NCBI GenBank assembly: GCA_017407115.1
Contig: JAFQXD010000042.1
Coordinates: 124,001 to 188,000 of the forward strand
Direction of reading: 5' to 3'
Source of the DNA: Methanobrevibacter sp.
GTDB taxonomy: Archaea > Methanobacteriota > Methanobacteria > Methanobacteriales > Methanobacteriaceae
Length of the DNA stretch: 64,000 nucleotides
A program made the translations under genes and the position numbers. A model generated the notes under the pieces. It had not been told where the DNA came from and searched no databases. It saw nothing but the letters and a program-made list of their open reading frames with translations. Below, one piece after another: positions 28,081-61,698 of this stretch (position 1 is the stretch's first letter; each line of letters opens with the position of its first letter).

Positions 28081-28097
28081 TAAACAAAAGGAAGCGA

Positions 28098-28391
28098 ATG
28101 TTAGATACTTTAATGTTAATCTGTGGTTTTTGCGGAGCTGGTGCTTTTGCAGTATGTTCATTACCACAAGTTATTAAAGCTTATAAAACTAAGTCGACAG
28201 GTGATATAAGTATTTTCTTTATTATCTTGTCAATCATAGGTAATTTATGTAGTGCTGCTTATATTTTTTATACCAATTATATAAGTGGAATGTGGCAATA
28301 TCCACAATATGTAAATTATACTTTGGCAACTATACTTATATTTGTCCTTCTCGGGTTAAAACTGAAATATGATAGGGAAAATAAAAAATGA
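28098..28391 (+). CDS. SemiSWEET/PQ-loop family transporter
   Basis: 97 aa from ATG 28098 behind AAAAGGAAG; an upstream ATG at 28053 lies in the promoter hairpin. Three membrane helices (about 3-24, 37-60, 68-88). The PQ-loop motif CSLPQVIKAYKTKSTGDIS (about 20-38) and length match bacterial SemiSWEETs, which dimerise to move sugars across the inner membrane. A phage copy is unusual. Overlaps the next gene (ATGA). The substrate cannot be told from the sequence. Confidence 0.7.
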   Translation: MLDTLMLICGFCGAGAFAVCSLPQVIKAYKTKSTGDISIFFIILSIIGNLCSAAYIFYTNYISGMWQYPQYVNYTLATILIFVLLGLKLKYDRENKK

Positions 28392-29153: not shown

Positions 29154-30308
29154 ATGATTTTGAAAATTTATTCAGAAGTAGAATTTAATATTTTAAAAAA
29201 TACACATAAAGAATATTCATATAATGGAACAAAAGCAATTTTTATTTGTTCATTATGTAAAAAAGAATCTATTAGGTCTTTTAAATCATTGACTATACCG
29301 TTTTTATGTAAACACTGTAAAGGGCATTTAAGCCATACAAGTGAAGAATATAAAGAAAAATATAAAAAATCAATGATTAAAAAATACGGAGTAGAATATA
29401 CTTTTCAAGCAGAAGGAATAAAAAATAAAGCAAAAAAGACGATATTTCAAAAATATGGTTGTGAAAATGTATTTCAAGCAGAAGAAATAAAAGAAAAAAT
29501 TAAAAATACAAATTTAATTAATATTGGAGTTGAATATCCAGGACAATCAAGGCAATGTCAATTAAAAGGGAAAGAAACATATAAAAACAAAACGGGTTAT
29601 GAACATAATATGCATAATCCAGAATCAAAAAAGAAAGTTAAAGAAACAACAATAAAAAGATATGGTGGTATTGGTGGCGCGTCAGATGAAATACGTGAAA
29701 AAATGGAAGAAACCAATTTAAAAACCTATGGTAAAAAATCATATTCATCTACTGAAGAATTCAAAGAAAAATTTCGCGAAACATCATATAAACGTTATGG
29801 TGTTGAGCATCCAACACAATCAAATATTATTAAAGAAAAAATAAAAAACACATGTATTAAAAAGTTTGGCGTGGAAAATTGTATGCAAAATCATTTTATT
29901 CGTCAAAAATCTAGGAAAAAATATATATATGATAATAAACGATTTGATTCTAGTTGGGAACTTGCATATTATATTTGGTTAACTGATAATAATATAGAAT
30001 TTCAATATCAACCAAATATTAAATTAAAATATGAATATAATAATAAAATACATTATTATTTTCCAGATTTTTTAGTTAATAATGAAATACATGAAATTAA
30101 AGGTAATTTATTTTTTAAAGAAAAAGATGAAACTAATGAAATGATTTGTCCATTTAATAAAGATTTAAATCATTTAGCTGAAGCAAAACACCAATGTATG
30201 ATTGAACATAATGTAAAGATATTAACTGAAAAAGAAATAAAATTATATTTAGATTATATTAATAAAAAATATGGAAATAATTTTTTAAAACAATTTAAGA
30301 GAAAATAA
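29154..30308 (+). CDS. homing endonuclease, KYGV-repeat + PD-(D/E)XK-like
   Basis: 384 aa. N-terminal Cys cluster (CSLCKKES; LCKHCKG), then about six modules of the form KKYGVEYTFQAEGIKNK between residues 70 and 255, probably DNA-binding units, then a putative nuclease core FDSSWELAYYIWL (about 264-276), YYFPDFLV and EIKG. Paralogue of the genes at 209 and 22943 and the most intact of the three. The start codon overlaps the segment paired with the H1 loop. Inserted between a gp23-like gene and nrdG; very AT-rich codon use. Activity and target site are inferred. Confidence 0.78.
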   Translation: MILKIYSEVEFNILKNTHKEYSYNGTKAIFICSLCKKESIRSFKSLTIPFLCKHCKGHLSHTSEEYKEKYKKSMIKKYGVEYTFQAEGIKNKAKKTIFQKYGCENVFQAEEIKEKIKNTNLINIGVEYPGQSRQCQLKGKETYKNKTGYEHNMHNPESKKKVKETTIKRYGGIGGASDEIREKMEETNLKTYGKKSYSSTEEFKEKFRETSYKRYGVEHPTQSNIIKEKIKNTCIKKFGVENCMQNHFIRQKSRKKYIYDNKRFDSSWELAYYIWLTDNNIEFQYQPNIKLKYEYNNKIHYYFPDFLVNNEIHEIKGNLFFKEKDETNEMICPFNKDLNHLAEAKHQCMIEHNVKILTEKEIKLYLDYINKKYGNNFLKQFKRK

Positions 30309-47022: not shown

Positions 47023-47373
47023 TGGACCCGAGGGGAGTCGAACCCCTGTCTTAAGTAACTTTAATATCCGTTCCTACAAGTTTTTCCTTCGAATTTACTT
47101 ATTCATTACATTTATGCCCTGAAGGTCGGCGTCAATGTAAACTAGCCTGTAAACTTCAGAAATAATACACAGACTTAATTATTTCCTAATCCATTATGCG
47201 ACCGAACTTTATACCCAATGGATGAACGGTATAGGCTCAGTGTTGCTATAAATTAAGCAGCCATTGCGTAAGTGTTAGCACTTATCTTTTTCAGACTTTT
47301 TTACAAGAACCCTCGTCTGAGACCTTGACTTGCAACTAATATCTCTATCACCCAATCGAAACCAGACGAGCCC
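47023..47373 (-). ncRNA. ssrA: transfer-messenger RNA
   Basis: One-piece tmRNA of 351 nt. The 5' GGGCTCG pairs with 3' CGGGTCC (7 bp, two wobbles); the T-arm is AGGGG-TTCGACT-CCCCT; the 5' region has GGTTTCGATTGGGT. The tag frame (47253-47279) encodes ANTYAMAA then TAA, ending in the Ala-Ala recognised by tail-specific proteases. The 3' CCA is not encoded (the discriminator A is followed by TTA), so it would be added by the host enzyme. Rescues stalled ribosomes together with host SmpB; no SmpB gene is seen in this window. Confidence 0.92.
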
Positions 47374-47382
47374 AATATTTAA

Positions 47383-47411
47383 AATATAATAAAACTAAAT
47401 AATGTTGTCAA
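47383..47411 (-). promoter_or_regulatory. sigma70-type promoter of the tmRNA gene
   Basis: Minus strand TTGACA (47406-47411), 17 bp, TATATT (47383-47388), 9 bases before the mature 5' end. It overlaps the last codons of the GIY-YIG gene. Confidence 0.8.
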
Positions 47412-48247
47412 CCCCTATTTTCAATATATTTAAAATGATAATTATTTGTCTGTTTATATTTACCATTACAACACCAAATAATACAATGTTTATTTAAATT
47501 CATTTGCCTTGCTGCTTCAGAGGCAGATTCAAAAATTTGTTGAGTTTCAATGCAAAGAACTTGTTTTTTATTTGGTTTTGCTTGTCTACAATAATATTGT
47601 TTTAATGTTATATTATATTCTTGTAAATATTTATCTATTTGTTGACAAGATTCAATAAATTCATTTATATTATCAGTTATTTTACAAAATCTATAATTTA
47701 ACGCATGGTTATCTTGACCATTTATGACATGTCTAATTGATTCTTTACCTATTCCCAATTCTTTAGCTGCTTTGCCTATTGATGGATAATATTTGTTCGT
47801 TTCATAACAAAATATAACTATCTGATTAGGATCTATTTTATACTTATTACTTTCTCTAATATTAATTAATTGTTCTTCTGTTAATTTACGACCAGTATTG
47901 GCTTTTCTAATTTTTTCTTTTTGTTCTTCAGACATTATAAAATGTCTACCCAAATTGCCATCACCACCTAAAGTTTTATTATATCCAAAATTTTTATCTG
48001 TTGAATTATATAAATTTATCCAAAACTGTTCTCTTTCATTTAATAATTCACGTTGACATTCTTCGATAATTTCAAATTCAAAATTATCTGTCCCATATTT
48101 TTCAAATGCTCTTGCTAAATGAGGATTTAATTTCGCATTTGGTGATAATTCTTGTCGCCATCGTCTATTAATGTCATTAGATTGACCAATATAACATTTG
48201 CCATTAATTTTATTTGTTATTTTATAAATTCCACAAATTTTTGTCAT
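47408..48247 (-). CDS. GIY-YIG homing endonuclease with NUMOD modules
   Basis: 279 aa. GIY-YIG domain at 5-95 (GIYKITN; CYIGQS; catalytic Arg in RRWRQELS; late Glu in ECQRELLNEREQFWI), then a NUMOD3-type segment (LGRHFIMSEEQKEKIRKANTGRKL) and two NUMOD1-like repeats (VIFCYETNKYYPSIGKAAKEL; VLCIETQQIFESASEAARQM). Sits between nadE and the tmRNA gene, as homing genes often do between conserved genes. Preceded by a double-hairpin RNA with complementary loops. Confidence 0.88.
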   Translation of the reverse strand: MTKICGIYKITNKINGKCYIGQSNDINRRWRQELSPNAKLNPHLARAFEKYGTDNFEFEIIEECQRELLNEREQFWINLYNSTDKNFGYNKTLGGDGNLGRHFIMSEEQKEKIRKANTGRKLTEEQLINIRESNKYKIDPNQIVIFCYETNKYYPSIGKAAKELGIGKESIRHVINGQDNHALNYRFCKITDNINEFIESCQQIDKYLQEYNITLKQYYCRQAKPNKKQVLCIETQQIFESASEAARQMNLNKHCIIWCCNGKYKQTNNYHFKYIENRG

Positions 48248-48391: not shown

Positions 48392-49138
48392 TTAAATACC
48401 AAAATTGTCTTTAAAATAATCTGGAAGATGTGGATCAAACTTTGGTAATCTAATCAGTTCAAGTTTAAATCTATTGGCATTAAATTTTTGCATAATTAAA
48501 TCATAATGTTCACCTTTAATACCAAATCTAATTAAATCAGATAATTCTTTATAAGTAAATCCGAGTTTTTCTTCATCTGTTAATGGCTGAAGACCATCAA
48601 TTGGTGTTTTATGAGTAAGTTCATAAGGAAGACCAAGGTCATCGCCAATTTCAATAACTTCAGAAACAGTTAACATACCAAGTGGGCTAAAACTTCCAAC
48701 AGAATCACCCCAAAGAGTTGCATATCCAACAACATCTTCATTTCTTTGACATGTATTGGCCATCAACCAGCCATGAGTTTGAGCAGTGACCATAATCTGA
48801 TTAGTACGAATTCTTGCACCAACATTAGTCTTTGCGTCATAGGACTTATCAGCACCCGGAACAAGAGCAAGAGATTCCTTAACTAATGTTTCAATATCCT
48901 GAACATCATAATCGATACCAAGATGGTCAACAAGCTTATAGGAACAAGAAATATCTTTCTGAATTCCACATGGAAGCAAAACGCCATGAACATGTTCCTT
49001 ACCAAGTGCTGCGACGCCAATAGCAGCGACAACAGAACTATCCTTGCCGCCAGAAATACCAAGAACCATATCTGTTTTACCAAGCTTATCGAATGTTTCC
49101 TTGGTCCAATTTACAACTTGCTGAGTTAATTCTTTCAT
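48392..49138 (-). CDS. nadE: NH3-dependent NAD synthetase
   Basis: 248 aa, about the size of single-domain bacterial NadE. PP-loop ATPase motif SGGKDSS (29-35); later RIRTNQIMVTAQTHGW, GYATLWGDSVGSFSPLGMLTVSEV and LPYELTHKTPIDGLQP are family signatures. Converts nicotinate adenine dinucleotide to NAD. With PncA and PncB in the same strand region it gives most of the Preiss-Handler salvage route; the adenylyltransferase (NadD) step is not seen in this window. Confidence 0.9.
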   Translation of the reverse strand: MKELTQQVVNWTKETFDKLGKTDMVLGISGGKDSSVVAAIGVAALGKEHVHGVLLPCGIQKDISCSYKLVDHLGIDYDVQDIETLVKESLALVPGADKSYDAKTNVGARIRTNQIMVTAQTHGWLMANTCQRNEDVVGYATLWGDSVGSFSPLGMLTVSEVIEIGDDLGLPYELTHKTPIDGLQPLTDEEKLGFTYKELSDLIRFGIKGEHYDLIMQKFNANRFKLELIRLPKFDPHLPDYFKDNFGI

Positions 49139-49219
49139 AATTTTATCCTTATATTAAATTTTAAATCTTATATTATCAAAGATAGAAAAGAAATATAAAG
49201 CGAAATGTAAATTTATTTT

Positions 49220-49363
49220 TTACTTTCCCTCTCCCTTCTCGAACCAACGAAGTTCTTGAAGTTGCTTTCTAATGTCATTAAATGTATTTCTTTCCTTGAT
49301 AATTACACCTCCAACTAGTGTAATCCCCAAAAGTGCCAAAACGGCTTTAAAAATTTTATTCAT
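49220..49363 (-). CDS. small single-pass membrane protein
   Basis: 47 aa, ATG 49363 behind AAAAAGGAT, stop 49220. One membrane helix (about 5-22), then a charged amphipathic tail (FNDIRKQLQELRWFEKGEGK). Function unknown. Confidence 0.5.
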   Translation of the reverse strand: MNKIFKAVLALLGITLVGGVIIKERNTFNDIRKQLQELRWFEKGEGK

Positions 49364-49392
49364 AATATATCCTTTTTAAAATGTCTGGCACA

Positions 49393-49421
49393 AATATAGT
49401 AAATTTTACTTAAATTGTAAA
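49393..49421 (-). promoter_or_regulatory. sigma70-type promoter
   Basis: Minus strand TTTACA (49416-49421), 17 bp, TATATT (49393-49398), upstream of the 47-aa membrane-protein gene. Confidence 0.65.
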
Positions 49422-49423
49422 CC

Positions 49424-49810
49424 TTACTTCTTTTTTAATAATTCTGTAAATTTATCAGCTAATTTACCAGCATCTGATTTTTCTCTTTCCTGAAACATTG
49501 GGTCAACTTTCTTTTTAGGAGGAGTTGATTTTGCTTTAGGATAATGTTGTGGAAAATTACCTTTAATTTTTTGTCTTGGATATGATGGGTCATGTGCAGA
49601 CATAAATCTATTGCATCTTTTATCAATATCATCAAGATTTTTTTCAATCTTTTCGATACCAGCTTCTATAGATTTAATAGTTGCATCTACTGAATCATTA
49701 GCGCCTGGAATAGTCTTAATCCATTTACCAAATTTTTGATCATGTGGTTCAGGACCAAGAACATGCCAGCCCATGTCTTCCATTATACCTTTTACATCAT
49801 CTAAGTTCAT
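49424..49810 (-). CDS. hypothetical protein with degenerate capsid-targeting leader
   Basis: 128 aa from ATG 49810, preferred because GAGG lies 9 bases upstream and the resulting start MNLDDVKGIMEDMGW resembles the shared leader; an ATG at 49825 overlaps the preceding stop and is also possible. The leader ends VLGPE instead of (L/I)xE, so cleavage is doubtful. A helical middle is followed by a basic Lys/Pro-rich tail. Confidence 0.5.
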   Translation of the reverse strand: MNLDDVKGIMEDMGWHVLGPEPHDQKFGKWIKTIPGANDSVDATIKSIEAGIEKIEKNLDDIDKRCNRFMSAHDPSYPRQKIKGNFPQHYPKAKSTPPKKKVDPMFQEREKSDAGKLADKFTELLKKK

Positions 49811-49821
49811 GTATAGATACC

Positions 49822-50634
49822 TCATTCTAGTATTTCTTTAAATACTTTGTAATTAGTATCATCCTTTCCACAATAGACAGCAAATTCAATATTCTTGAAG
49901 AAGAGTTTTCCGATTTCCAAAGCTTTCTTGTAAGCCTTAGCTACAATTTCAGGTGGGTTTTTGAATGCTCCACAACCGAATGCACCAAGAATAATTGTTT
50001 CATCACCATGAAATGCAGCTAAGTTAAGAATATGAGTTGCTCTGCGGAAATGAATATCAAACAATTCTTCATCAGTAACGTTTGGTTTTTCGCCACGCTC
50101 ATGGTTGTAAGCGTTTGCAGGTGTTTCACGAAGATTAGGTGCTGCACAAGTAATTACATTTACAGAGAATGGACGATACAATAAGTTATAATTGTCCGAT
50201 TTGATAATTTGAATATTGGGTGTGTAAATTGCATCATTGTTATGAAGTGCATTTCCATGTTCTTTATGTGGTTTATAAAAGATTTTGTCAAATTTCGGGT
50301 CAGACAAAACATTATAAAGTGTAGAACAACGACAAAGACATTCTTCTTGTGCATTAGAACCCTTTGTTACACCGCCGCCAGGATTAGTAGCAGACGCAAA
50401 ATTGAGAACTGCTACTTTACCAGTATATTTTCTTGTCGCATCAAAAGAACTACTCTTAGTAACCTTAACAATTCCTGGAGTTTTTTTCTCGCAGAAAAAG
50501 TCAATCGTCATATTATCGGCAAGAAAATACGAATTTTCAATCGAATACTTAATAGAATTCTGTAAGGTTTTATCCTTATTAATTAATTCTTGAGTATGAT
50601 TAAAAATTTTAATATTTTCTTCTTTACTAGCCAT
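49822..50634 (-). CDS. microbial-type poly(ADP-ribose) glycohydrolase-like protein
   Basis: 270 aa. Macro-type fold with the PARG signature NPGGGVTKGSNAQEE (GGG 86-88, QEE 96-98), FASATNPGG before it and ILGAFGCGAFKNPP (about 220), all typical of the TIGR02452/PARG-like family. Removes ADP-ribose from proteins or other acceptors. In a phage it could reverse ADP-ribosylation by host defence or recycle ADP-ribose; the NAD-synthesis genes nearby support an NAD/ADP-ribose theme. Confidence 0.8.
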   Translation of the reverse strand: MASKEENIKIFNHTQELINKDKTLQNSIKYSIENSYFLADNMTIDFFCEKKTPGIVKVTKSSSFDATRKYTGKVAVLNFASATNPGGGVTKGSNAQEECLCRCSTLYNVLSDPKFDKIFYKPHKEHGNALHNNDAIYTPNIQIIKSDNYNLLYRPFSVNVITCAAPNLRETPANAYNHERGEKPNVTDEELFDIHFRRATHILNLAAFHGDETIILGAFGCGAFKNPPEIVAKAYKKALEIGKLFFKNIEFAVYCGKDDTNYKVFKEILE

Positions 50635-50636
50635 GA

Positions 50637-50921
50637 TTAAGCCTTAAACATATCATCACACTTCAAGAGCAAACGATCAATCTTGGGTTGAATCATCTTT
50701 TGATTATACGGATCATCGCCGACAATATCATTCTTGGTCCAGTGGCAGAGTCTACCGATAATAAGGAACCACAAGATGTTTGCAAGCGGTGACAGAATGA
50801 CAATATCAAACACACTTGGATGGAACGGAACATGGTCCATTCTATGACCAACATAAAGTGCGATAATGCCAGCTGCATACATTGCAATGACAGTGAAAAT
50901 GATAGTAGTGATTGTAGTCAT
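50637..50921 (-). CDS. small two-helix membrane protein
   Basis: 94 aa with two membrane helices (about 3-24 and 38-60), then a charged helical tail (DPYNQKMIQPKIDRLL). Starts after its own promoter; the PARG-like gene follows by 2 bases. Function unknown. Confidence 0.5.
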   Translation of the reverse strand: MTTITTIIFTVIAMYAAGIIALYVGHRMDHVPFHPSVFDIVILSPLANILWFLIIGRLCHWTKNDIVGDDPYNQKMIQPKIDRLLLKCDDMFKA

Positions 50922-50954
50922 GTTTATTTTTCCTTTGGTTATAGTTTTTTATAA

Positions 50955-50983
50955 AATATAATAAAAAGCAGGGTTGTTGTCAA
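50955..50983 (-). promoter_or_regulatory. fused terminator hairpin and sigma70-type promoter
   Basis: Minus strand GCAGGGTT-gacaac-AACCCTGC stem and T-run; TTGACA (50978-50983), 17 bp, TATATT (50955-50960). It ends the PspA-like gene and starts the next operon. Confidence 0.78.
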
Positions 50984-51030
50984 CCCTGCTTAGTGATTTT
51001 ATTTAGGAGAATAGGATAAATCCTTTTTTA

Positions 51031-51681
51031 TTAGACACCCTTGTAAGCCTTGACGACTTCCTCGAATTCAGTGTCGAGAGCGACAGTTTCGATGGTCTGA
51101 GTGCCCTTACCACCCTTACCGGTGATTTCGGCAATTTCCTGCTTAGCTTCGATGTGGAACTGAGTGGTCTTGACTTCGCTTTCGATTTCAGCAATCATAG
51201 CGTTGCAATCGATACCGAAATCACCGATCTTGTTGCGATCGCACATCTTGAGTGTATCGATCTGGACCTGGAGAGCAGTGAGCTTGGCTTCGATGAGAGC
51301 CTTGTTGGTGTCGATGTTCTTGAGAGTATCACGAACCTGGACACACTGCTTTTCTGTGTTCTGCCAAGCAGTTTCGATAGTGTCACGAGCAGTCTTCATG
51401 CCCTTGTAAACAATATACTTAATCTTAGCTTCATCGAGCTTGTCAGCAGCGATGAGAGATTCATAGACACGCTTGCTAGTAGCGGTCTTTTCGTCGAGTT
51501 CCTCGAACTTGGCCTTGAGTTCCTTAGCGTTGACCAGCATATCTTCAGCCGACTTGATATACTGAGCGGCATTCTTATTATACTGATAACGGATTTCCTC
51601 AATCTTATCCTTGGTGGAGATGAGGCCTTCGAGACCACGCTGAGCCTTGTGAGCGAAGATTTTGAAGATATTGAAAGACAT
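51031..51681 (-). CDS. PspA/IM30-like coiled-coil protein
   Basis: 216 aa, almost all helical. The amphipathic N-terminus (MSFNIFKIFAHKAQRGLEGL) and long coiled coil (about 20-180; KYIVYKGMKTARDTIETAWQ) resemble PspA/Vipp1, which coat stressed inner membranes. Codon use is more GC-rich than its neighbours, hinting at high expression. Own promoter. A generic coiled-coil protein is the alternative. Confidence 0.45.
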   Translation of the reverse strand: MSFNIFKIFAHKAQRGLEGLISTKDKIEEIRYQYNKNAAQYIKSAEDMLVNAKELKAKFEELDEKTATSKRVYESLIAADKLDEAKIKYIVYKGMKTARDTIETAWQNTEKQCVQVRDTLKNIDTNKALIEAKLTALQVQIDTLKMCDRNKIGDFGIDCNAMIAEIESEVKTTQFHIEAKQEIAEITGKGGKGTQTIETVALDTEFEEVVKAYKGV

Positions 51682-51738
51682 AGTTTGTTTCCTTATGTTA
51701 ATTGTTGAATTGTTTTATTGTTTTTTGTTTATGTGCAT

Positions 51739-51767
51739 AATATAGTAATTATTATCGCACTTGTAAA
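51739..51767 (-). promoter_or_regulatory. sigma70-type promoter
   Basis: Minus strand TTTACA (51762-51767), 17 bp, TATATT (51739-51744), upstream of the PspA-like gene. Confidence 0.68.
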
Positions 51768-51775
51768 CCCCCTGA

Positions 51776-52219
51776 TTATAAAAATTTTATGCAGGCAACC
51801 TTACTGGGATCTACTTTATATTTAAGGTGCTTGTTGAGACGCTTAATCTCATCATTTTTTATATCAGTTAATGCATTATATACCTCTGGAATGCAACATC
51901 CACGATTACTATGGCAATATTCAAATATCGGTGCGGTTCGAGCATCAAATCGTTCCGAAAACTCTTTAATATATTCTAGTTCTTCTTCAGATGAATATTG
52001 AATTGTATTACCGTAGAAATCTACAGTTCCAATAACTGGATGTTCAAGTTCCTTTAAATAATCATTAAAGTCTTCAATAGTATTTTCTAATACCGTACTA
52101 AAGAGAGTTTCGTCTACGGGCTTTTCTTTCGTGCTATATTTAATAATATTGCACAAACAAGCAGCTCTTACAGTATGATCTTCTCTAGGTATCGGCGGTA
52201 ATGCTGTTCCTGGACCCAT
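51776..52219 (-). CDS. soluble protein, paralogue of next gene
   Basis: 147 aa. Shares with the 52232 product the order HPVIGTVDFYG, SSEEELEYIKEF, and EIKRLNKHLKYKVD near the C-terminus. No membrane helix. Last gene of the operon that begins at 56068. Family unknown. Confidence 0.5.
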   Translation of the reverse strand: MGPGTALPPIPREDHTVRAACLCNIIKYSTKEKPVDETLFSTVLENTIEDFNDYLKELEHPVIGTVDFYGNTIQYSSEEELEYIKEFSERFDARTAPIFEYCHSNRGCCIPEVYNALTDIKNDEIKRLNKHLKYKVDPSKVACIKFL

Positions 52220-52231
52220 ATATTCTCCAAA

Positions 52232-52735
52232 TTACGAATAATAATAACCGTCTATATTAAGATATGTATTTTCATTATCTAATTTATAGACAATATGTTT
52301 ATTTAACCATTCAATTTCTGATGCTTTTAATCTATGAATAGTATTAACAACTGTGCTTATATACGTTCCAACTTTATATTCTGGAAGTCGATTAATATGC
52401 CACATAAGACTTTCAGCTGCGGTTTTAATAAATGATTTTTCTATCTCAGTTGTTACTGGAATTTTAATATTAAAAAAATCAGCATAACCGATAATTGGAT
52501 AATCATGTGGTTTCAAAAGCTCATTATACTCATTAAGTAATAAAGGCAAAAGATTCTTAAAAATACTTTCACCTTCATCACGTCTGGTTACTTTGAAATA
52601 ACCTTTTTCAGTATGAACTAAACCTTTATAAGTATAATATTTTTCGCCATTAATACGTTCCACCTGCGGATAACCTTTATATTTTGGTTTTTTAGGTTGT
52701 GGTGGAGGTGGAACTGGACAAGGTGGATATGACAT
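52232..52735 (-). CDS. soluble Pro-rich protein, paralogue of 51776
   Basis: 167 aa from ATG 52735 behind AGGAAA; an in-frame ATG at 52765 lacks a ribosome-binding site. Pro-rich start (SYPPCPVPPPPQPKKPKY), then YPIIGYADFFN, TEIEKSFIKTAAE and EIEWLNKHIVYKLD, aligned with the 51776 product. Function unknown. Confidence 0.5.
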   Translation of the reverse strand: MSYPPCPVPPPPQPKKPKYKGYPQVERINGEKYYTYKGLVHTEKGYFKVTRRDEGESIFKNLLPLLLNEYNELLKPHDYPIIGYADFFNIKIPVTTEIEKSFIKTAAESLMWHINRLPEYKVGTYISTVVNTIHRLKASEIEWLNKHIVYKLDNENTYLNIDGYYYS

Positions 52736-52757
52736 ACTGTTTCCTAATATTTCTCTA

Positions 52758-53339
52758 TCAATCATTTAGTAATTTATTAAATTCATTAATCATTCCTCGT
52801 TCGGGAGTTTTTGGTCTATAAATTGTCTTACATGCAATATAATCAATAAAATGACCACAAAGATGGAATATACCAATAATAGAAGAAACTACTCCCAAAA
52901 CTATTAAACCCGGAATAATGGCAAATGATAAAATTAAAAAACTCCAGTAACAAATACTAAGTTTAATAGATGCTGCAGTTCCATCTTTAATATCTTGCCA
53001 ATCATCGGCTGGTCTATAATCTGTATCATCTTTTAATAATCTCTGTTTTTCCTTATATTGCCGACACCAATCATCATAATTACTGGCAGTAATAGCCATC
53101 ATAACAAGAGAAAATGTACAAGAACATAATATTGTTACATATGGCCATATCATTCCGTTTCTTTTGAAATAAAGAAAAAAATTATTTTGAATAATATTTG
53201 TATTTTGTTCCAAAATACTAGCGGCTGATATGATTACCATGAAACCACAAAATATTATTGCAACACTTTGAAGCAAACACATATACCATTCATTCCAAGC
53301 ATCTCCATTTAAAAGTGCATTATTAATTTTTCTTACCAT
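52758..53339 (-). CDS. four-helix membrane protein of INEYNKLL family
   Basis: 193 aa. Hydrophobic pairs at about 21-44 and 67-84, then 127-165, with a charged cytoplasmic loop between. A basic linker and the tail MINEFNKLLND match the tails of the 53333 (IIDEYNKLV) and 54727 (MINTYNNFL) products. Overlaps the upstream gene by 7 bases. Function unknown. Confidence 0.55.
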   Translation of the reverse strand: MVRKINNALLNGDAWNEWYMCLLQSVAIIFCGFMVIISAASILEQNTNIIQNNFFLYFKRNGMIWPYVTILCSCTFSLVMMAITASNYDDWCRQYKEKQRLLKDDTDYRPADDWQDIKDGTAASIKLSICYWSFLILSFAIIPGLIVLGVVSSIIGIFHLCGHFIDYIACKTIYRPKTPERGMINEFNKLLND

Positions 53340-53878
53340 GGTTGTGTCCCCACTAGTTTATTGTATTCGTCAATAATAGTTTTCTTGTATTTTTCTGGAG
53401 ATTTCTTCCTATAACTGTTAAGCATATTACTAACAGATAATTTATTATGGAATGCTATAGCACATTCACACAAGAAAGCGAAGAATCTTGCAGAATTCAT
53501 AACAATAACTAATATAATTGAGATAGGTGCAAATATAATACTTCCACCGAACAAGATATTACAACCAAGATAGAAAATACTTTCAAAATACGATTTATCA
53601 TTATGTTCATAATAATAATCTCTATATTTATCCATTGCAAAGAATAGACAGAGGTCACCAACAATGAACAGAATAATAGGTAATACAATAGCCCACCAAT
53701 GTTCATGCAAAAAATTGTGCATAAAGATAGTGCTTGGCCATGCATTTCGTTGTAAATTACCAAGACCATTAATAAGAAGATATAATGAAGCAACGACTTG
53801 GAAAATTATTTCAATCGAAACGACTCCAACCCACCATTCTTGTCCTTTGAAAAAGTAATCTTTTAAAAACTTCTGCAT
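53333..53878 (-). CDS. four-helix membrane protein of INEYNKLL family
   Basis: 181 aa. Helices at about 16-38, 62-80, 102-127 and 129-146; loop KYRDYYYEHNDKSYFES; basic tail with KKTIIDEYNKLVG. Same topology and tail as its neighbours at 52758 and 54727. Function unknown. Confidence 0.55.
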   Translation of the reverse strand: MQKFLKDYFFKGQEWWVGVVSIEIIFQVVASLYLLINGLGNLQRNAWPSTIFMHNFLHEHWWAIVLPIILFIVGDLCLFFAMDKYRDYYYEHNDKSYFESIFYLGCNILFGGSIIFAPISIILVIVMNSARFFAFLCECAIAFHNKLSVSNMLNSYRKKSPEKYKKTIIDEYNKLVGTQPW

Positions 53879-53887
53879 ATATTCTCC

Positions 53888-54193
53888 TTATTTAAAGACC
53901 ATTGGAACGGCCGACATTGGAAGTGGTTTATTAGGAATTGCTTTACAACATTGCGGTGATTGTTCTTTATATGATGAACGAACTTTTTCTGCAGCTAAAT
54001 GACCTTTGTATTCCAGAATACTTTGTTCATATAACTTAGCACGTTTTTCAACCATGATTTCATGATTCGCTTTATTAGAGTAAATATCTATAGAAAATCC
54101 AGTTACTAATAGAGCAATCAAAAGAATTGCTCCAACAATCGATGTTACTGTATAGTAATCATCATAATTTAATCTATGATTTTTTGTTCTCAT
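53888..54193 (-). CDS. single-pass membrane protein
   Basis: 101 aa. One membrane helix (about 16-38) after a short basic N-terminus, then a helical segment and a Pro-rich tail (KAIPNKPLPMSAVPM). Middle of the membrane-protein operon. Function unknown. Confidence 0.5.
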   Translation of the reverse strand: MRTKNHRLNYDDYYTVTSIVGAILLIALLVTGFSIDIYSNKANHEIMVEKRAKLYEQSILEYKGHLAAEKVRSSYKEQSPQCCKAIPNKPLPMSAVPMVFK

Positions 54194-54196
54194 GGT

Positions 54197-54709
54197 TTAG
54201 TTCCTTTTTAAATGGTTATTAAGGTTACTGATAACGTCAGGAAGTATTCTACTAACTCTATCATTAATATCAGTCATTGCTTCAATCTTTTTCTTTTTAT
54301 GATTTTTTGGAAATAAGAAAATAAAAGTTAGTATTTCTACTATTGGTATAATATAATACCAATAACTACTGGAATTTGCCGATATAATAGCACTTATAAT
54401 TCCAATCAATCCCAAATAAGCAACAACAATTAAAAGTCTATCAATCCATTGAATAATAATAGATGTTGTTTCCTGGTATTCAATCATTTTTGGCGCATAG
54501 AACTTAGTATCAATTTGTTCAATATCATATGTACTCAAATGATATTTAGCATTAAGATCCTTAAGCGATTCTGGAATTCCTCCACACCAACAATGTGTTT
54601 CTTTTACCGGTTCTTTTACTGTTTTTGTTATAGTTTGCGATGGTATTCCCATAATTGCTAATACAATACAGAATACTATCACTAGTTCTGAGATGACTTT
54701 TATAAGCAT
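54197..54709 (-). CDS. membrane protein with exported Cys loop
   Basis: 170 aa. N-terminal helix (about 5-22), a loop with HCWCGG and mixed charge (about 25-80), two further helices (about 88-107 and 118-135), then a basic stretch (PKNHKKKK) and a helical tail (RILPDVISNLNNHL). Operon member; function unknown. Confidence 0.52.
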   Translation of the reverse strand: MLIKVISELVIVFCIVLAIMGIPSQTITKTVKEPVKETHCWCGGIPESLKDLNAKYHLSTYDIEQIDTKFYAPKMIEYQETTSIIIQWIDRLLIVVAYLGLIGIISAIISANSSSYWYYIIPIVEILTFIFLFPKNHKKKKIEAMTDINDRVSRILPDVISNLNNHLKRN

Positions 54710-54726
54710 TGATATGCTCCTATGTT

Positions 54727-55248
54727 TTAGTTTCTAAGAAAGTTGTTATAGGTATTTATCATTTCTTTTTCTGTTTTTTCCCGAACAATCATTTTTTCTT
54801 TTGTTTTTCTTGGTGCGAATAACATAAAGAAATGCTCAAGACAGAAATTAACTGCATAGAATAAATACTTAGTAATATCATAAAGAAGAATAAATGGCAT
54901 TACTATAAGCAATGCACCACTGCAAGTAGCAAATACCCAAAAATACCCAGCAACTAAGAATCTTCGATCATCATCTGCCTTATAGTGTGAATCAGCAAAT
55001 AATGTAAAAACGCCGAAAACAATAGAAATTATTACAATGATAAGTCCGATTAACCAAATTTTATCACCCGGTTGTGCGATAAGTGAAAGGTTACCCATTT
55101 CTACTGGAGTTGTAGCAAAATAATCAACACCAGTAATAATGCTTAAAACAATAATACCCATAACAGATAAAACTGTTAAAGCATATGAAAATTCATTATA
55201 ATTAGCGTCAGTAATTGATTTACTAGTATCTTTGAGTAATTTAATCAT
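54727..55248 (-). CDS. four-helix membrane protein of INEYNKLL family
   Basis: 173 aa. Helices at about 22-42, 64-86, 97-120 and 124-143; charged loop ADSHYKADDDRRF; basic tail KEKMIVREKTEKEMINTYNNFL. Same topology as the products of 52758 and 53333. Its start overlaps the stop of the 63-aa upstream gene. Function unknown. Confidence 0.55.
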   Translation of the reverse strand: MIKLLKDTSKSITDANYNEFSYALTVLSVMGIIVLSIITGVDYFATTPVEMGNLSLIAQPGDKIWLIGLIIVIISIVFGVFTLFADSHYKADDDRRFLVAGYFWVFATCSGALLIVMPFILLYDITKYLFYAVNFCLEHFFMLFAPRKTKEKMIVREKTEKEMINTYNNFLRN

Positions 55249-55439
55249 TATGGATTTTCTCCTTTGACAAATTTGTCAAGAAGTTCTAAGAATTTATCTT
55301 CTTCTAAAAAGAATGGATCTTGTCCATACCAGCCGAAGAAGTTGAACATAAACTGTCCAAAACGCCAATCTGGAAAATGAGTGATATGGACAGTTTGAAG
55401 TTTTTGATAAAAATCGTAAAGACGATTCGGGTCTCGCAT
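55248..55439 (-). CDS. small soluble aromatic-rich protein
   Basis: 63 aa, rich in Phe and Trp (FPDWRFGQFMFNFFGWYGQD), no membrane helix long enough to span. Overlaps both neighbours by 1 base. Function unknown. Confidence 0.48.
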   Translation of the reverse strand: MRDPNRLYDFYQKLQTVHITHFPDWRFGQFMFNFFGWYGQDPFFLEEDKFLELLDKFVKGENP

Positions 55440-56068
55440 TAGTAACCTCTACACTTTTCTTTCATAAGAGAAATGAATACTTCATTAATAGGATCATCTG
55501 TTTTTCTGATAGTATCAGTTCTTCTTGGAGTTAAACGATAACGAGAACCCGTTGGTCTTTGATAAGCAGTAATAACAGGTTGCTGTGTCTGTCTAGCAAT
55601 CTGACTAACAAGATCCATTGCTTCATGATAGCTTGTCAGAACGTCTTTAGGACCATTATCAGTAGATTCAGTTTTAACAACCTTTACCTTATCATAAGCA
55701 GGTCTGAAATCACTAAATAAATCCTGTTCATCGATATACTTATCATATTCTTTATCAAATGTAGAAGCATTATCAAGAATAGATGGCTTACCAGTTCCAA
55801 GGAACCGATTGAGCTTATACCATACTTCCGGTAATTTCTTATTATACTTGTTTACGAATTCGTCTTCCCTTTTCTTTTTAGTAGACCATTTCCAAATATA
55901 AGCAAGCAATGTAGTGACGATTAAACCGACAAACATTAGCGGAGCGATAAGAACGCAGGCAATCTTAGGGTCATCCTTGACATCAATCATTTTCTGTTCT
56001 TTTAAGAACCGAATGATTAAACGACAGCCGATGTATGAGGCAAAGTAGATTAGAAGTAATTTGAGCAT
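55439..56068 (-). CDS. membrane protein with cytoplasmic tail, operon leader
   Basis: 209 aa. Two membrane helices (about 2-19 and 36-61), a basic stretch (WKWSTKKKREDEF) and VNKYNKKL, an internal form of the INEYNKLL tail motif of the operon; then a 125-residue soluble domain with an Arg/Thr-rich end. First gene after the promoter at 56101. Function unknown. Confidence 0.52.
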   Translation of the reverse strand: MLKLLLIYFASYIGCRLIIRFLKEQKMIDVKDDPKIACVLIAPLMFVGLIVTTLLAYIWKWSTKKKREDEFVNKYNKKLPEVWYKLNRFLGTGKPSILDNASTFDKEYDKYIDEQDLFSDFRPAYDKVKVVKTESTDNGPKDVLTSYHEAMDLVSQIARQTQQPVITAYQRPTGSRYRLTPRRTDTIRKTDDPINEVFISLMKEKCRGY

Positions 56069-56100
56069 TTTTTTATCCTTTTTTATGTTTTACTAAATAT

Positions 56101-56129
56101 AATATAGAAAAAAGAACCACTTTTGTAAA
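56101..56129 (-). promoter_or_regulatory. fused terminator hairpin and sigma70-type promoter
   Basis: Minus strand AGAACCA-tttacaaaag-TGGTTCT stem with T-run; the -35 TTTACA (56124-56129) is in the loop, 17 bp to TATATT (56101-56106). It ends pncB and starts the membrane operon. Confidence 0.78.
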
Positions 56130-56169
56130 TGGTTCTTTTTAATTTTTATCTGGCGAATATTTTTGCAGA

Positions 56170-57453
56170 TTACGGTGTTTTAATTACGACCATTCCGCCC
56201 TTCCACTGGTCAAGCGGAATATACTCAAATACGCTCTTAACGTATTCGACATATGCCGGGGATTCGCACATATTCTTTTCCGGGCAATCGCTAAGCTTAA
56301 CGACATCTCTACCATTAACCTTAACAACCTTCATAACCATGGAAAGCGGCTTAATACCAGCAGTCTCAGTTACAAGATTTGCCATGAAATAAGTACCGAT
56401 ACCGAAGCTAATCTTGATACGACCATTGAAATGCTGTGCAATCTTAATTGCCTTATCAACGTCGAGAGAATCAGACCAGCAGCCAGTCTTAGTAGTCGGA
56501 TCAATACCGAGTGCCTTATAATGAGCAATCAACATTTCACCCCAGACAATCGGGTCACCGCTATCATGGCGGCATCCATCAAACAACTTTGCATAGAACT
56601 TATCAAAGTCACGAAGGAATGGAATAAATCCAAAGTTATCAGAAAGTGCAATACCAAGATCGCCGCGATATTCCTGTGTCCATGCATCGAATACTGCCTT
56701 CTGAGACTGACGAATAGGAACATCATCAAGTCCCTGGAACAGAGCATACATTTCGTGTGCAAACGTTCCAATTGCCTTTACACCATATTTAATGGCAAAA
56801 TAAAGGTTAGAAGTTCCGACAAAGCACTTACAGTTCTTAGCCATATAACCAACTGCATAGTCTTGCCATGCAAAAGAATGTCTACGGCGAGCGCCAAAGT
56901 CAGCAAAACCGAACTTTAAGCCAGAATCGATTGCTGCATTAAACTTATCAACTGCTTCCTTAAGATTTTGCTTTGCCTTTTCAAAATCAAATTCAAACTG
57001 ACGAAGATAAAGTTCCTGGATAATTTCCATCACATAGATTTCAAACCATGTGACTTTGAGTTGTGGGCCTTCTGCTTCAATTTCAAGATCGTCACCGCGG
57101 CGAGTAATCTTAATGTACTTTCTCTTAAGACGGAAGTCTTCGAGCCAATCAACATAGTCAGGCTTAATGTAATAAATCTTGGACAATGCATCAAGTTCGA
57201 ACGGTTGCCACCTAAGAGTACAAAGATGGTCAACTTCGCGGTTAACTGCATCAACCAAATAACCCAAATGAACATCCTTAGAACGAAGTTTCCACTTCCA
57301 TTTAGCCCATTCATTTGGTCGTTTATGAAGAAGACATTGAGTCATAGAAACTTTGTAAATATCAGTATCACTAAGATAATTGATAATATACTTATCTTCA
57401 TCGAGTGGTTTATAATTCTTGATTTCTTCAATTTCTTTTTGAGAAAGTTCCAT
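56170..57453 (-). CDS. pncB: nicotinate phosphoribosyltransferase
   Basis: 427 aa, close to E. coli PncB in length. LSDTDIYKVSMTQ at the start, FADFGARRRHSF, FVGTSNLYFA, GTFAHEMY, RHDSGDPIVWGE and SFGIGTYF are PncB signatures rather than NAMPT. Joins nicotinate and PRPP to give nicotinate mononucleotide. Downstream of pncA on the same strand and on the same pathway as nadE. A phage carrying several consecutive NAD-salvage enzymes probably maintains or restores NAD. Confidence 0.92.
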   Translation of the reverse strand: MELSQKEIEEIKNYKPLDEDKYIINYLSDTDIYKVSMTQCLLHKRPNEWAKWKWKLRSKDVHLGYLVDAVNREVDHLCTLRWQPFELDALSKIYYIKPDYVDWLEDFRLKRKYIKITRRGDDLEIEAEGPQLKVTWFEIYVMEIIQELYLRQFEFDFEKAKQNLKEAVDKFNAAIDSGLKFGFADFGARRRHSFAWQDYAVGYMAKNCKCFVGTSNLYFAIKYGVKAIGTFAHEMYALFQGLDDVPIRQSQKAVFDAWTQEYRGDLGIALSDNFGFIPFLRDFDKFYAKLFDGCRHDSGDPIVWGEMLIAHYKALGIDPTTKTGCWSDSLDVDKAIKIAQHFNGRIKISFGIGTYFMANLVTETAGIKPLSMVMKVVKVNGRDVVKLSDCPEKNMCESPAYVEYVKSVFEYIPLDQWKGGMVVIKTP

Positions 57454-57476
57454 ATTAATATCCTCTTTAAATATTA

Positions 57477-57818
57477 TTAAAATCCATTTTTAAGTTTTTG
57501 AACATAAAAGTTCAGTGGTTTGTCATCTTCATTTGCTGCATTAACACATTTGTTGTAACGAGCTTGATTGAAGTATTTTGATTTTTCCTTGAAGATCATT
57601 TCGTGCATATCGTTCATCATCTTGTAACGGTGCATCATGAATTCATTAATGAGTTTTTCTGATGTAACGATATAATAATTAAGTGACTTCTTTAAATTCT
57701 TTTGGTCTACCGATTTAATATAAGTAATACATTCATCATAACGACCAGAAGCAAGAAACTTGCTAATATCTGCCATAACTTTTAAATTAGGCGGAAAAAG
57801 TTTTAGAAAAAATTTCAT
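57477..57818 (-). CDS. small basic helical protein
   Basis: 113 aa from ATG 57818, preferred because GGAG lies 6 bases upstream; an ATG at 57830 contains that site. Mostly helical and basic, no family recognised. Between its promoter (57847) and pncB, 23 bases before pncB, so the two are co-transcribed. Confidence 0.5.
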   Translation of the reverse strand: MKFFLKLFPPNLKVMADISKFLASGRYDECITYIKSVDQKNLKKSLNYYIVTSEKLINEFMMHRYKMMNDMHEMIFKEKSKYFNQARYNKCVNAANEDDKPLNFYVQKLKNGF

Positions 57819-57846
57819 TTTAATCTCCAAGATTTTGTTTTAAACA

Positions 57847-57875
57847 AATATAGTAAAAATAACCATTTTTGTAAA
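57847..57875 (-). promoter_or_regulatory. fused terminator hairpin and sigma70-type promoter
   Basis: Minus strand ATAACCA-tttacaaaaa-TGGTTAT stem with T-run; TTTACA (57870-57875) in the loop, 17 bp, TATATT (57847-57852). It drives the 57477 gene and pncB. Confidence 0.78.
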
Positions 57876-57878
57876 TGG

Positions 57879-58097
57879 TTATTCTTTAATATTAATTTTG
57901 ATTTGAGAACCAAATGTTCTAAGTACAATATCTACGTTTTCTTTTGTAACGGGTTTATGTAATTTTCTTACTACATCTTCAGCTAGTGCATAAATCTGCT
58001 TTTCTGTCGCACCATCGGCAACAGCAAGCAGATCCTGCCATACATTTGCTAGATCTTTAAGACCATCAGTATTGTATTTGTCTGGAATATTAGGCAT
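57879..58097 (-). CDS. small helical protein
   Basis: 72 aa, helical (LANVWQDLLAVADGATEKQIYAL), mildly acidic. Its start overlaps the pncA stop by 8 bases, so it is co-translated with PncA. No family recognised. Confidence 0.5.
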   Translation of the reverse strand: MPNIPDKYNTDGLKDLANVWQDLLAVADGATEKQIYALAEDVVRKLHKPVTKENVDIVLRTFGSQIKINIKE

Positions 58098-58677
58098 TGA
58101 TTACATCAATCTGTTGACGCTGGAGACAGAGAATTGCAGCCTTCTGACCTTCTTCATCCAAATCAGCAATGCAGCTTGCATCAACCGTAATCTTCATATT
58201 CGGGAATGCAGCTCTAAGAATAACTGCGTTCGCAAGAACACAAATTGTGCTTACGAAACCCCAGATTTCGATTTCGTCGAATTCAATGCCGAGATTTCTG
58301 ATATATTCAGGAAGATCGAGCTTACCGAATGTATACTTATCGACAGAATAGAAATTATGCTTACCATCTTGATTCTTCTTCTGAAGTTCATCAAGAATGG
58401 TCTTTTCGATTTCCCAACCATCGGTCAACTTAATACAATGCGGAACTGGAAGTTTCTGTCCTTCCAAAGTTTCCTCATATGGCTTGCCTTCCATTGGAGG
58501 CCAACCAGTAGTAACCTGCATCTTGTTAAAGTGAGTATCATGTGTTGCAATGATAGCACCATCCCAATGCTTAATCTTGTTAACAATATTAGGAACCTTC
58601 GCCTGTGCGAATGGGTTTGCGAGAGCACCAGTAATAAAGTCTACCTGTGCATCAACTAATACGCCGAGTTTTGCCAT
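58090..58677 (-). CDS. pncA: nicotinamidase / isochorismatase-fold hydrolase
   Basis: 195 aa. LVDAQVDF (catalytic Asp9), ATHDTHF (metal-site Asp-x-His) and GFVSTICVLANAV (nucleophile Cys about 149) give the Asp-Lys-Cys set of nicotinamidases, and TGW-PPH-like TTGWPP and PVPHCIKLTDGWE fit the family. Converts nicotinamide to nicotinate, which PncB then uses. Nicotinamide is also the by-product of NAD-cleaving defence enzymes, so this gene could recycle it. Confidence 0.85.
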   Translation of the reverse strand: MAKLGVLVDAQVDFITGALANPFAQAKVPNIVNKIKHWDGAIIATHDTHFNKMQVTTGWPPMEGKPYEETLEGQKLPVPHCIKLTDGWEIEKTILDELQKKNQDGKHNFYSVDKYTFGKLDLPEYIRNLGIEFDEIEIWGFVSTICVLANAVILRAAFPNMKITVDASCIADLDEEGQKAAILCLQRQQIDVINA

Positions 58678-58703
58678 TGTTATATCCTCTCTTTTTATTT
58701 TTA

Positions 58704-58732
58704 AATTTAGTAAATTTTTTTGTGTTTGTAAA
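58704..58732 (-). promoter_or_regulatory. sigma70-type promoter
   Basis: Minus strand TTTACA (58727-58732), 17 bp, TAAATT (58704-58709), upstream of pncA. Confidence 0.6.
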
Positions 58733-58737
58733 TATGT

Positions 58738-59694
58738 TTATTTCTTTTCTGCCTCAAGTGCAATCAACGAGTTACCGCAAGTAATACGGTCAGCATCTTC
58801 TTCATGTGACGGAATGAAAACAATAACCTGCCAACCTGCATCGACAAGCGGTTTTTCGAACTTATCGTAAACGTCAAAATCAAATTCAGTAGTGAAGTTA
58901 TTTACTGCTGCAGCTTCTGTTGCATGGATAGGAGTAATCTTAACAATGAAACGGTCCTTATCGAAATACTTGTCCATGAGAGCAGGGTCAAGATTGCACT
59001 TGCCAGTTGCTGCAAAGTTCAGAGTATACTTTCTACCAGCAGGAGGCGGAAGACGCTTTGCTAAATCCGAGATTTCCTGCAAGCTTAACGACTGGTTATT
59101 AAACATGTCGTTTCTATCAGCTTCATCAAGAGTATTGATAGAGAACTGAAGACCAATACCGCCATTCCACTTTGCATCATAACCAAGAGCACACCAGTCT
59201 TGGAGGAATGCTTCAAGCTTCTTGTTGTTATTCGGAAGCATGGTAGAAACGACAGGGTGATATTCCTTGAACCAGTTATTGGAAATATTACCAATATCAC
59301 GAGCGACCTTAATTACGTTTGGATTCCAAGTAGGTTCGCCCATTCTTGCAAAGTGGACATTGAGTCTTTCACCTTGAGTAATCTTGGAGAATGCGATACC
59401 ATTAACAATTTCGGACATCAATTCAAAGTAGGGAACGTTTCCCTTAAAGCCGAACTTAGGACAGTCACAGAACTTACAGGATTCAAGACAACCTTTTTGT
59501 GTAGAAACTGTAACGACAAGCTTATCTGCAACATCGACCGGTTTGTGAACATCCTTTTCGATTCTTTTAGTATAGCCTAAGAAATCTGCCTTAATGTTAT
59601 TTTCTTTACCATAATCGCCTACGTAAAGATACTCCAAATTGAGGTCTGTGTCCGAGACAATCATGCCTGTGTGTGTTTGAGTTATAGTTCTCAT
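58738..59694 (-). CDS. RlmN-like radical-SAM enzyme
   Basis: 318 aa. Iron-sulfur motif GCLESCKFCD (C69, C73, C76), ARMGEPTWN (the RlmN GEP motif), QFSINTLDEADRND and a C-terminal ITCGNSL whose Cys306 sits where RlmN has the Cys of ACGQL that takes part in methyl transfer. The N-terminal domain before the cluster is shorter than in RlmN. RlmN methylates C2 of adenines in 23S rRNA and tRNA; the phage enzyme may act on one of these or on its own tmRNA. A divergent relative of Cfr/RlmN is the safest label. Confidence 0.7.
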   Translation of the reverse strand: MRTITQTHTGMIVSDTDLNLEYLYVGDYGKENNIKADFLGYTKRIEKDVHKPVDVADKLVVTVSTQKGCLESCKFCDCPKFGFKGNVPYFELMSEIVNGIAFSKITQGERLNVHFARMGEPTWNPNVIKVARDIGNISNNWFKEYHPVVSTMLPNNNKKLEAFLQDWCALGYDAKWNGGIGLQFSINTLDEADRNDMFNNQSLSLQEISDLAKRLPPPAGRKYTLNFAATGKCNLDPALMDKYFDKDRFIVKITPIHATEAAAVNNFTTEFDFDVYDKFEKPLVDAGWQVIVFIPSHEEDADRITCGNSLIALEAEKK

Positions 59695-60226: not shown

Positions 60227-60706
60227 TTATGCCTTTAGTTTTTCTTCTAGTTTGTGTAATACTTCCTTATACGTCGTAAAAAGGATAGCGTTACTCCCAG
60301 CCCCAACAAAATCAGCACAATTTTCTGGTTTATCGTCGATTAATAAACGATTTGGTTTCGCATGTTCAACCTTATTAAAAGACCTATTGCAAATAATAAC
60401 ATTTTCCTGATTTATTTCAGGGCAGTTACATTCAAGCCAATATCGTTTTCCTCGTTTACCAGAATTAGAGAAAATAGCGGATAGAACACCAAGTTTAAAA
60501 TTATACTTCTTCTGTAATTCAAGAATGCCCAGATAAAGATCATGACCTTCAAGAAGCCAAGGCATATCAATCCAGAATTTAGCACCAATTTTACATACTT
60601 TATCCCAATTCGCTTTTCCCGTAGGTTTTCGGGCGTTGTAAAAATCAATCTGGTAATCCCAGTTGGTTAATACACCGTCCATATCTAAATATACTTCATC
60701 TATCAT
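60227..60706 (-). CDS. HAD-type 5'(3')-deoxyribonucleotidase-like phosphatase
   Basis: 159 aa. HAD motif I DMDGVLTNW (Asp8, Asp10), GVLSAIF region (motif II) and LLIDDKPENC (motif IV), the pattern of 5'-nucleotidases of the NT5C type. Could dephosphorylate deoxynucleotides and help balance pools with NrdD/NrdG. Its start overlaps the upstream radical-SAM stop (ATGA). Confidence 0.65.
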   Translation of the reverse strand: MIDEVYLDMDGVLTNWDYQIDFYNARKPTGKANWDKVCKIGAKFWIDMPWLLEGHDLYLGILELQKKYNFKLGVLSAIFSNSGKRGKRYWLECNCPEINQENVIICNRSFNKVEHAKPNRLLIDDKPENCADFVGAGSNAILFTTYKEVLHKLEEKLKA

Positions 60707-61698
60707 AGAGTAGAAATGTTTAAAAGTTCAGAAATTGTTTCTTGTCCAGTTATTTTATGGAAATTTTCTTTAGGCATATCGACCGAAATACTTACTTCCA
60801 TATTAGGCATATCTATATAAAGGTCAGGAACGATAATATTGCCTACTGTATCTCGTTTCTTAATTCCGTCAATATTATAAACCGAATCTGATGGAACATC
60901 AAACAGATGTAATACTCTTGCAGGATTAATCTGTTTAAAACCAAGAATATCAAAGTTTATAATCTTGCACATGCTATGCAATGCCGGAATTTTCTTCTGT
61001 AACCAGGAAATATTCTTTTCGATTTCTTTCTTATACTTTTCAAAAAGAACCTTTCCTCGACCAGTATTCTTAAATCCTTGAATCAAGACCCTTCTTCCCT
61101 GTAAAGCAGGAAGGTCATGCCTGTTAAGAATACCAGCGATTACATGAATAACGACTCTATCACCAAGTTTGTCTATGAATTTAAAATCTTCCTTACAATG
61201 TGCGTCATGCAATGTAATTCCAAGGCCATAAATGAGTTCTTCATCGATTAATTTCTTAATAAGGTCTTTATTTTCTTTGATATGAATCTGATTAATATTA
61301 AGGTTAACGATGATTTGTCTTGCCTTGAGAATTCCCAGAATAGTTATAAGTTCTGGATGTGCCAAAGGATTTCCACCAGTAATATTAACTTCAAGTCCAG
61401 GATAGAAAGAATTAATCATAGGTAACAACTTTGACAAATCAGCATGCTTTGTTGCACTATTACTTCCTTCAGAACAGAACTGGCAACCTGCATTACAAAA
61501 ATCTGTAATTTTTATAGTTATATTTTCTGGCGCTTCATAAATGAAATTTTCAGAATCTGTCTCAACCCAACGGTTAACACGAGTTCCTTTAGGTCCTGGT
61601 TCGTTTACATAGTAACCAGTCTCTTTGACCTTCGTACCGTCAGTATAAATAGTAGTACGATGATTGCCATTTATATAACTACTTATAATATTACTCAT
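60703..61698 (-). CDS. radical-SAM enzyme of unknown substrate
   Basis: 331 aa. Iron-sulfur motif ITDFCNAGCQFCSEGS (C68, C72, C75), VNITGGNPLAHPE (SAM-binding GGNP), then a barrel; the C-terminal 100 residues have no Cys cluster, so no SPASM domain is seen. First gene of an operon with the HAD phosphatase and a small secreted protein, after its own promoter. Modification of a nucleotide or peptide is possible; substrate unknown. Confidence 0.65.
   Translation of the reverse strand: MSNIISSYINGNHRTTIYTDGTKVKETGYYVNEPGPKGTRVNRWVETDSENFIYEAPENITIKITDFCNAGCQFCSEGSNSATKHADLSKLLPMINSFYPGLEVNITGGNPLAHPELITILGILKARQIIVNLNINQIHIKENKDLIKKLIDEELIYGLGITLHDAHCKEDFKFIDKLGDRVVIHVIAGILNRHDLPALQGRRVLIQGFKNTGRGKVLFEKYKKEIEKNISWLQKKIPALHSMCKIINFDILGFKQINPARVLHLFDVPSDSVYNIDGIKKRDTVGNIIVPDLYIDMPNMEVSISVDMPKENFHKITGQETISELLNISTL

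Follow-up and report, generated by a model that had tools for sequence, protein, structure and literature searches.

Genes for PncA, PncB and NadE within 10 kb of one contig raise the question of whether a phage can encode its own route from nicotinamide to NAD+ through nicotinate, and what benefit such a route would bring. The stretch of DNA analyzed here, called the window, comprises 64,000 nucleotides and corresponds to positions 124001-188000 of contig C83 (191,090 bp). The initial annotation had described the three genes as lying within 10 kb and in one phage. Both statements are borne out: each gene is found at the position given in Table 1 with family matches and motifs, and the end of C83 is 97% identical to a 415,750-bp viral contig from IMG/VR (G001). 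Positions 186000-191090 of C83 align at 96.9% to positions 182781-187872 of G001, which represents a sister phage of approximately 97% identity over this end. The NAD-salvage genes sit in a very large (jumbo) gut phage.

Table 1. Genes and elements of the NAD-salvage region and its surroundings, in window coordinates.
Feature	Length	Position	Strand	Basis or remark
Stand-alone Nudix hydrolase	148 aa	42074..42520	-	PF00293, 1.1e-11; conserved in relatives
tmRNA		47023-47373	-	Complete; tag ANTYAMAA; Rfam RF00023, 138 bits
NadE, ammonia-dependent NAD synthetase	248 aa	48392..49138	-	PF02540, TIGR00552
ORF	133 aa	49424..49825	-	4-bp overlap with the PARG stop; sister-phage version 90% identical
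PARG-type macrodomain ADP-ribose glycohydrolase	270 aa	49822..50634	-	TIGR02452, PF10021
PncB, nicotinate phosphoribosyltransferase	427 aa	56170..57453	-	TIGR01514, PRK05321
ORF	117 aa	57477..57830	-	Directly upstream of PncB; position conserved in relatives
Composite hairpin element		57847..57875	-	Precedes 117-aa ORF and PncB; 14-bp stem, TTTACA in loop
ORF	72 aa	57879..58097	-	Overlaps PncA end by 8 bp
PncA, predicted nicotinamidase, isochorismatase superfamily	195 aa	58090..58677	-	PF00857, alignment, fold search

All three are intact minus-strand genes bearing catalytic motifs. NadE (PF02540, E=8.8e-42; TIGR00552, 140 bits against a cut-off of 64) retains the P-loop SGGKDSS, present as GISGGKDSS, is without a glutaminase domain, and has as its best PDB match the NH3-dependent NAD synthetase 2e18; its 12 phage homologues are 75-86% identical. 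PncB reaches 381 bits with TIGR01514 (cut-off 270) and 451 bits with PRK05321 (cut-off 379), keeps the motifs GT(F)AHE and RHDSGDP intact and is closest in the PDB to 1yir (1.2e-87), with only a weak match to the phage NAMPT family phrog_448. PncA is divergent, and its nicotinamidase activity is predicted. It has the isochorismatase fold by PF00857 (E=8e-13), finds no match by sequence in NCBIfam and does not reach the curated PRK11609 cut-off; in a fold search with its predicted structure (mean pLDDT 71), ranks 1-16 are all nicotinamidases. The seven phage homologues, the most distant at 31% identity, all keep residues D9, D47, H49, H80, K114 and C146, and of these we take D9, K114 and C146 to be the catalytic triad and D47, H49 and H80 the metal site.

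Matches to these enzymes are rare among 50,697 phage records (13 for PncB, 39 for NadE and 7 for PncA). Their order is conserved in sister phages, and dN/dS values of 0.01-0.23 between phages indicate purifying selection on all three. Because the genes are rare, keep their order in the sisters and have dN/dS far below 1, chance ORFs are excluded, and NadE, PncB and PncA are functional genes.

One of the three has been replaced without loss of its step. In viral contig 3300031998_003964 (L055), PncB is only 36% identical at the protein level to that of the window, between flanks that match the window DNA at 95.7% (57470-58755) and 93.7% (55002-56141). This second PncB type, scored with the sequence of the related contig G008, is likewise above the NAPRTase cut-offs. 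The PncB gene has been cleanly swapped in place, the step being kept and the enzyme changed, an argument that it is the pathway on which selection acts.

The NadD step had been noted as missing, with the rest of the genome proposed as the place to search. The absence stands for the window and for the whole 191,090 bp of C83, where neither the PF01467 profile at E<=10 nor a search for the HIGH motif found a NadD-like gene. For the phage it most likely does not stand, as C83 ends just short of the gene: just past the corresponding end in the 97%-identical sister, at 188032-189135 of G001, lies a 367-aa protein whose N-terminal part is a nucleotidyltransferase and whose C-terminal part is a Nudix domain (PF01467 and PF00293), and C83 stops 160 bp before its place. 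This is the NadM-Nudix architecture, an adenylyltransferase with a C-terminal Nudix domain, seen in the sister phage and not in C83. By fold, in a low-confidence model (pLDDT 66), the fusion matches bifunctional NadM-Nudix enzymes (FtNadM and the NadM of Synechocystis) and NadD enzymes. Its best NCBIfam model is TIGR00482, nicotinate nucleotide adenylyltransferase, at 49 bits; as the cut-off of 112 is not reached, we can only infer a preference for NaMN rather than NMN. A 180-aa nucleotidyltransferase of some relatives was rejected as a NadD candidate, being CoaD-like and above the TIGR01510 cut-off.

The gap is thus most likely an artefact of the contig end, and the phage probably owns the whole four-enzyme route, with its adenylyltransferase assigned by synteny only because none lies within the 191 kb of C83. 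A phage that does without the enzyme and uses host NadD, its three genes only easing bottlenecks, would also account for that stretch lacking NadD. We regard this as very improbable, given where C83 ends relative to the sister and given that the adenylyltransferase-Nudix fusion, PncA, PncB and NadE occur together in seven related contigs (3300028914_000114, 3300028832_000001, 3300028887_000114, 3300023371_000061, 2236876025_000239, 3300037455_000543 and 3300028048_000055).

The set also recurs in phages unrelated to this one. In L059 (3300023235_000012), a separate lineage, NadE, PncB, a Nudix protein, a NadM-like NMNAT and PncA lie within 4.3 kb and partly overlap, and L032 carries PncA, NadE, NadD above its cut-off, an ADPR-type Nudix protein and PncB. 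The 735-kb phage LR756501 encodes PncB, NadE, PnuC, NadR and PncA within 8.5 kb. Sinorhizobium phage Phosso (PV764938), an isolate, has NadE, PncB, MutT, NMNAT and a nicotinamidase-scoring hydrolase, annotated as "hydrolase" with no mention of nicotinamidase; like the present phage it thereby has a complete deamidating set, within 6 kb, although its NadE is of the PRK00768 type, its NMNAT is NadM-like and its Nudix protein is a separate gene. The set is therefore found in at least four unrelated phages (L059, L032, Phosso and LR756501) and in at least five phage lineages in all, and because the unrelated phages use different enzyme subfamilies it constitutes a recurring module. Recurrence in at least five lineages, taken with the exchange of PncB, points to the pathway rather than individual genes as the target of selection. 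The gene set could be used as a target for detection tools, and Phosso offers an isolated phage in which the idea is testable.

The assembly from which C83 comes raises the question of the host. The bin is of archaeal origin, with an NMN adenylyltransferase above the archaeal cut-off (TIGR01527), and a near-identical phage contig was found in a Methanobrevibacter MAG; McrA was looked for in the bin and not found. Despite this bin the phage almost certainly infects bacteria, because its tmRNA is complete while an archaeal family without SmpB (above cut-off in 1 of 138 genomes) could not use it. If the bin's organism were the host, the phage could be supplying a salvage branch wholly absent from it, and the bin outside the phage contig does encode NadA, NMN adenylyltransferase and NadE with neither PncA nor PncB, just as none of the 137 other genomes of the family has an intact NAPRTase. 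This reading is barely credible and was dropped, the bin being archaeal and the tmRNA-bearing phage almost certainly bacterial; the simplest account is that C83 belongs to a bacterial phage co-binned through similar G+C (32%). With a bacterial host and an archaeal bin, the bin's absent PncA and PncB therefore say nothing on the phage host. The nearest cellular NadE sequences (Oscillospiraceae, Clostridia and Lachnospiraceae MAG contigs, 45-48%) were set aside as host pointers, being too distant. A 703-aa secreted protein (20070-22181, plus strand), whose C-terminal stretch resembles an outer-membrane beta barrel, adjoins a 1598-aa cadherin-repeat protein (15079-19875), and the pair suggests a Gram-negative host.

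What the route would do for the phage may be read from its steps. PncA would convert nicotinamide to nicotinate, PncB would combine nicotinate with PRPP to give NaMN, the adenylyltransferase-Nudix fusion would carry NaMN to NaAD, and NadE would amidate NaAD to NAD+, with PRPP and ammonia supplied by the host. A search of nine related contigs and Phosso turned up no PRPP synthetase, so that PRPP would have to be host-derived. ADP-ribose products would be cleared by the fused Nudix domain, perhaps together with the PARG-type enzyme. In sum, nicotinamide and ADP-ribose, the products of NAD cleavage, would return to usable pools during phage replication. We consider it rather likely, judging from the predicted enzymes, that the genes form a complete phage-encoded deamidating NAD salvage module, most likely protecting against NAD-depleting defences, and probably a functional counterpart of NARP1/NARP2. 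The spread of NadE, PncB and PncA over 10 kb amid unrelated genes, rather than in one tight operon, counts against a module.

The PARG-type gene lies between NadE and PncB and occupies the same slot in several relatives, whereas three of the complete four-enzyme contigs showed no such gene. Its product scores 175 bits with TIGR02452, above the cut-off, matches PF10021 and the PARG structures 5zdf/3sig, and has an intact catalytic GGG...QEE motif (GGGVTKGSNAQEE). The stand-alone Nudix hydrolase is a possible accessory.

The benefit could instead be metabolic and not specifically tied to defence: the module would keep NAD+ high for replication of a large genome, redox reactions and NAD-dependent DNA ligase through a lengthy infection. 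This explanation has been offered for the NAD genes of KVP40 and other phages (cited in PMC7824862, PMC9127768), cyanophages and many large phages carry NadE, and some relatives have an NAD-dependent DNA ligase (G008, L099's contig and L032). Such a ligase was not found among the ORFs of C83, however, and PncA with an ADPR-type Nudix domain would be expected for recycling NAD-cleavage products and less needed for pure biosynthesis; the PARG-type enzyme within the cluster also speaks against a purely metabolic role. We regard that role as plausible, if somewhat short of an even chance, and would place counter-defence slightly ahead of replication support because a nicotinamidase, an ADPR-type Nudix enzyme and a PARG-type enzyme suit what NAD cleavage releases.

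An extension of counter-defence, which we think unlikely, would join the two functions in one counter-immunity module: the PARG-type enzyme would cleave Thoeris signals such as 2'cADPR at their ribose-ribose glycosidic bond, the Nudix domain would break the ADPR so formed, and PncA, PncB, NadD and NadE would rebuild NAD+ from the nicotinamide set free. The bond in 2'cADPR shares its 1''-2' linkage type with poly(ADP-ribose). If such a module were real, the signal would be erased and the coenzyme restored, in parallel with the pairing of RyDEP and NARP1 (PMC13232231) and with unrelated enzymes.

The rebuilding of NAD by phages has recently been recognised as a response to NAD-depleting immunity and is represented in the accessible literature by amidated routes only. 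The founding description of NARP1 and NARP2 is reportedly that of Osterman et al. 2024 in Nature, and NARP2 is said to be grouped with NadV/NadM(-Nudix)/NadR salvage. NARP1 reconstitutes NAD+ through Adps and Namat (PMC12774641). Like NARP1, the present route would be a phage-encoded pathway rebuilding NAD+ from nicotinamide, but it would proceed through deamidation to nicotinate, with PRPP as donor, NaMN and NaAD as intermediates and a final amidation. The transferase here is a NAPRTase and not the NAMPT-like, ADPR-PP-using Namat. For Adps, a PRPS-like ADPR kinase, neither nine related contigs nor Phosso gave a PF13793 match; C83 was searched only by phmmer with the PRPP synthetase of phage phAss-1, and no match was obtained.

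Surveys of jumbo-phage and viral NAD genes describe NadV, NadM and NadR (PMC9503650, PMC7824862). The NadV/NadM(-Nudix)/NadR salvage of KVP40 resembles the present route in its adenylyltransferase-Nudix fusion, in salvaging nicotinamide and in occurring in jumbo phages, and differs in that NadV is here replaced by PncA, PncB and NadE and in that the adenylyltransferase domain comes closest to NadD. Phage phAss-1 (OQ749652) likewise has a nicotinamidase and NadE within 5 kb, unlike the present phage combining them with an NAMPT-type (PRK09198) transferase and a PRPP synthetase, with no NMNAT found. Atu_ph07 has been reported with NAPRTase, NadR and PnuC, and Ochrobactrum phage OC with NadV, NatV, NadR and PnuC. 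In Xanthomonas phage X1, pncB, nadM, nadD, nadE and NAMPT are listed as metabolic genes and a counter to NAD depletion has been suggested, although the annotation is automated and nicotinamidase is not reported (PMC13384950). Publications already exist on the individual genes and on the proposal that NAD synthesis by phages offsets depletion; no description of a complete nicotinamidase-first route was met in the literature searched, which left out many journals including the founding NARP paper. The view that described phage pathways use other enzyme pairs thus holds for NadV/NadM/NadR and for the Adps and Namat of NARP1, and has to be qualified for X1, where pncB, nadD, nadE and NAMPT are listed. 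The deamidating route, put forward as a different solution, is real, and it is most likely not incomplete, as the sisters carry the adenylyltransferase-Nudix fusion immediately beyond the contig end.

The genes around the set show further features. Relatives also retain the two small ORFs that separate PncA from PncB. The hairpin before the 117-aa ORF is followed by a T-run and, 17 nt on, by TATATT, and may be a composite terminator/promoter-like element. Such elements, with a hairpin of 11-15 bp, TTTACA or TTGACA (-35-like) in the loop and then a T-run and TATATT, occur at 57875, 56129 and 50983 (minus strand) and at C83 189692 (minus strand). There are 13 with a stem of at least 7 on the contig versus 0-4 in shuffles; most directly precede gene starts, several of them before minus-strand genes. 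A run of small membrane-protein ORFs, apparent paralogues that diverge fast between relatives, fills 52758-55248 (minus strand). A single PQ-loop (semiSWEET-like) membrane protein (28053-28391, plus strand) adjoins anaerobic ribonucleotide reductase, and was set aside as a PnuC substitute, the PQ-loop match standing alone.

Beside PncA lie two radical SAM proteins (58738-59694 and 60703-61698, minus strand), one distantly like RlmN/Cfr. An FMN-reductase gene of G001 is absent at the matching spot of the window (58679-58760), where the alignment blocks of the two contigs overlap by approximately 25 bp, as after a repeat-mediated deletion. Many ORFs are homing-endonuclease-like (209-1198, 23495-23923 and 29154-30308, plus strand; 47408-48247, minus strand), and a GIY-YIG homing-endonuclease-like ORF directly follows NadE.
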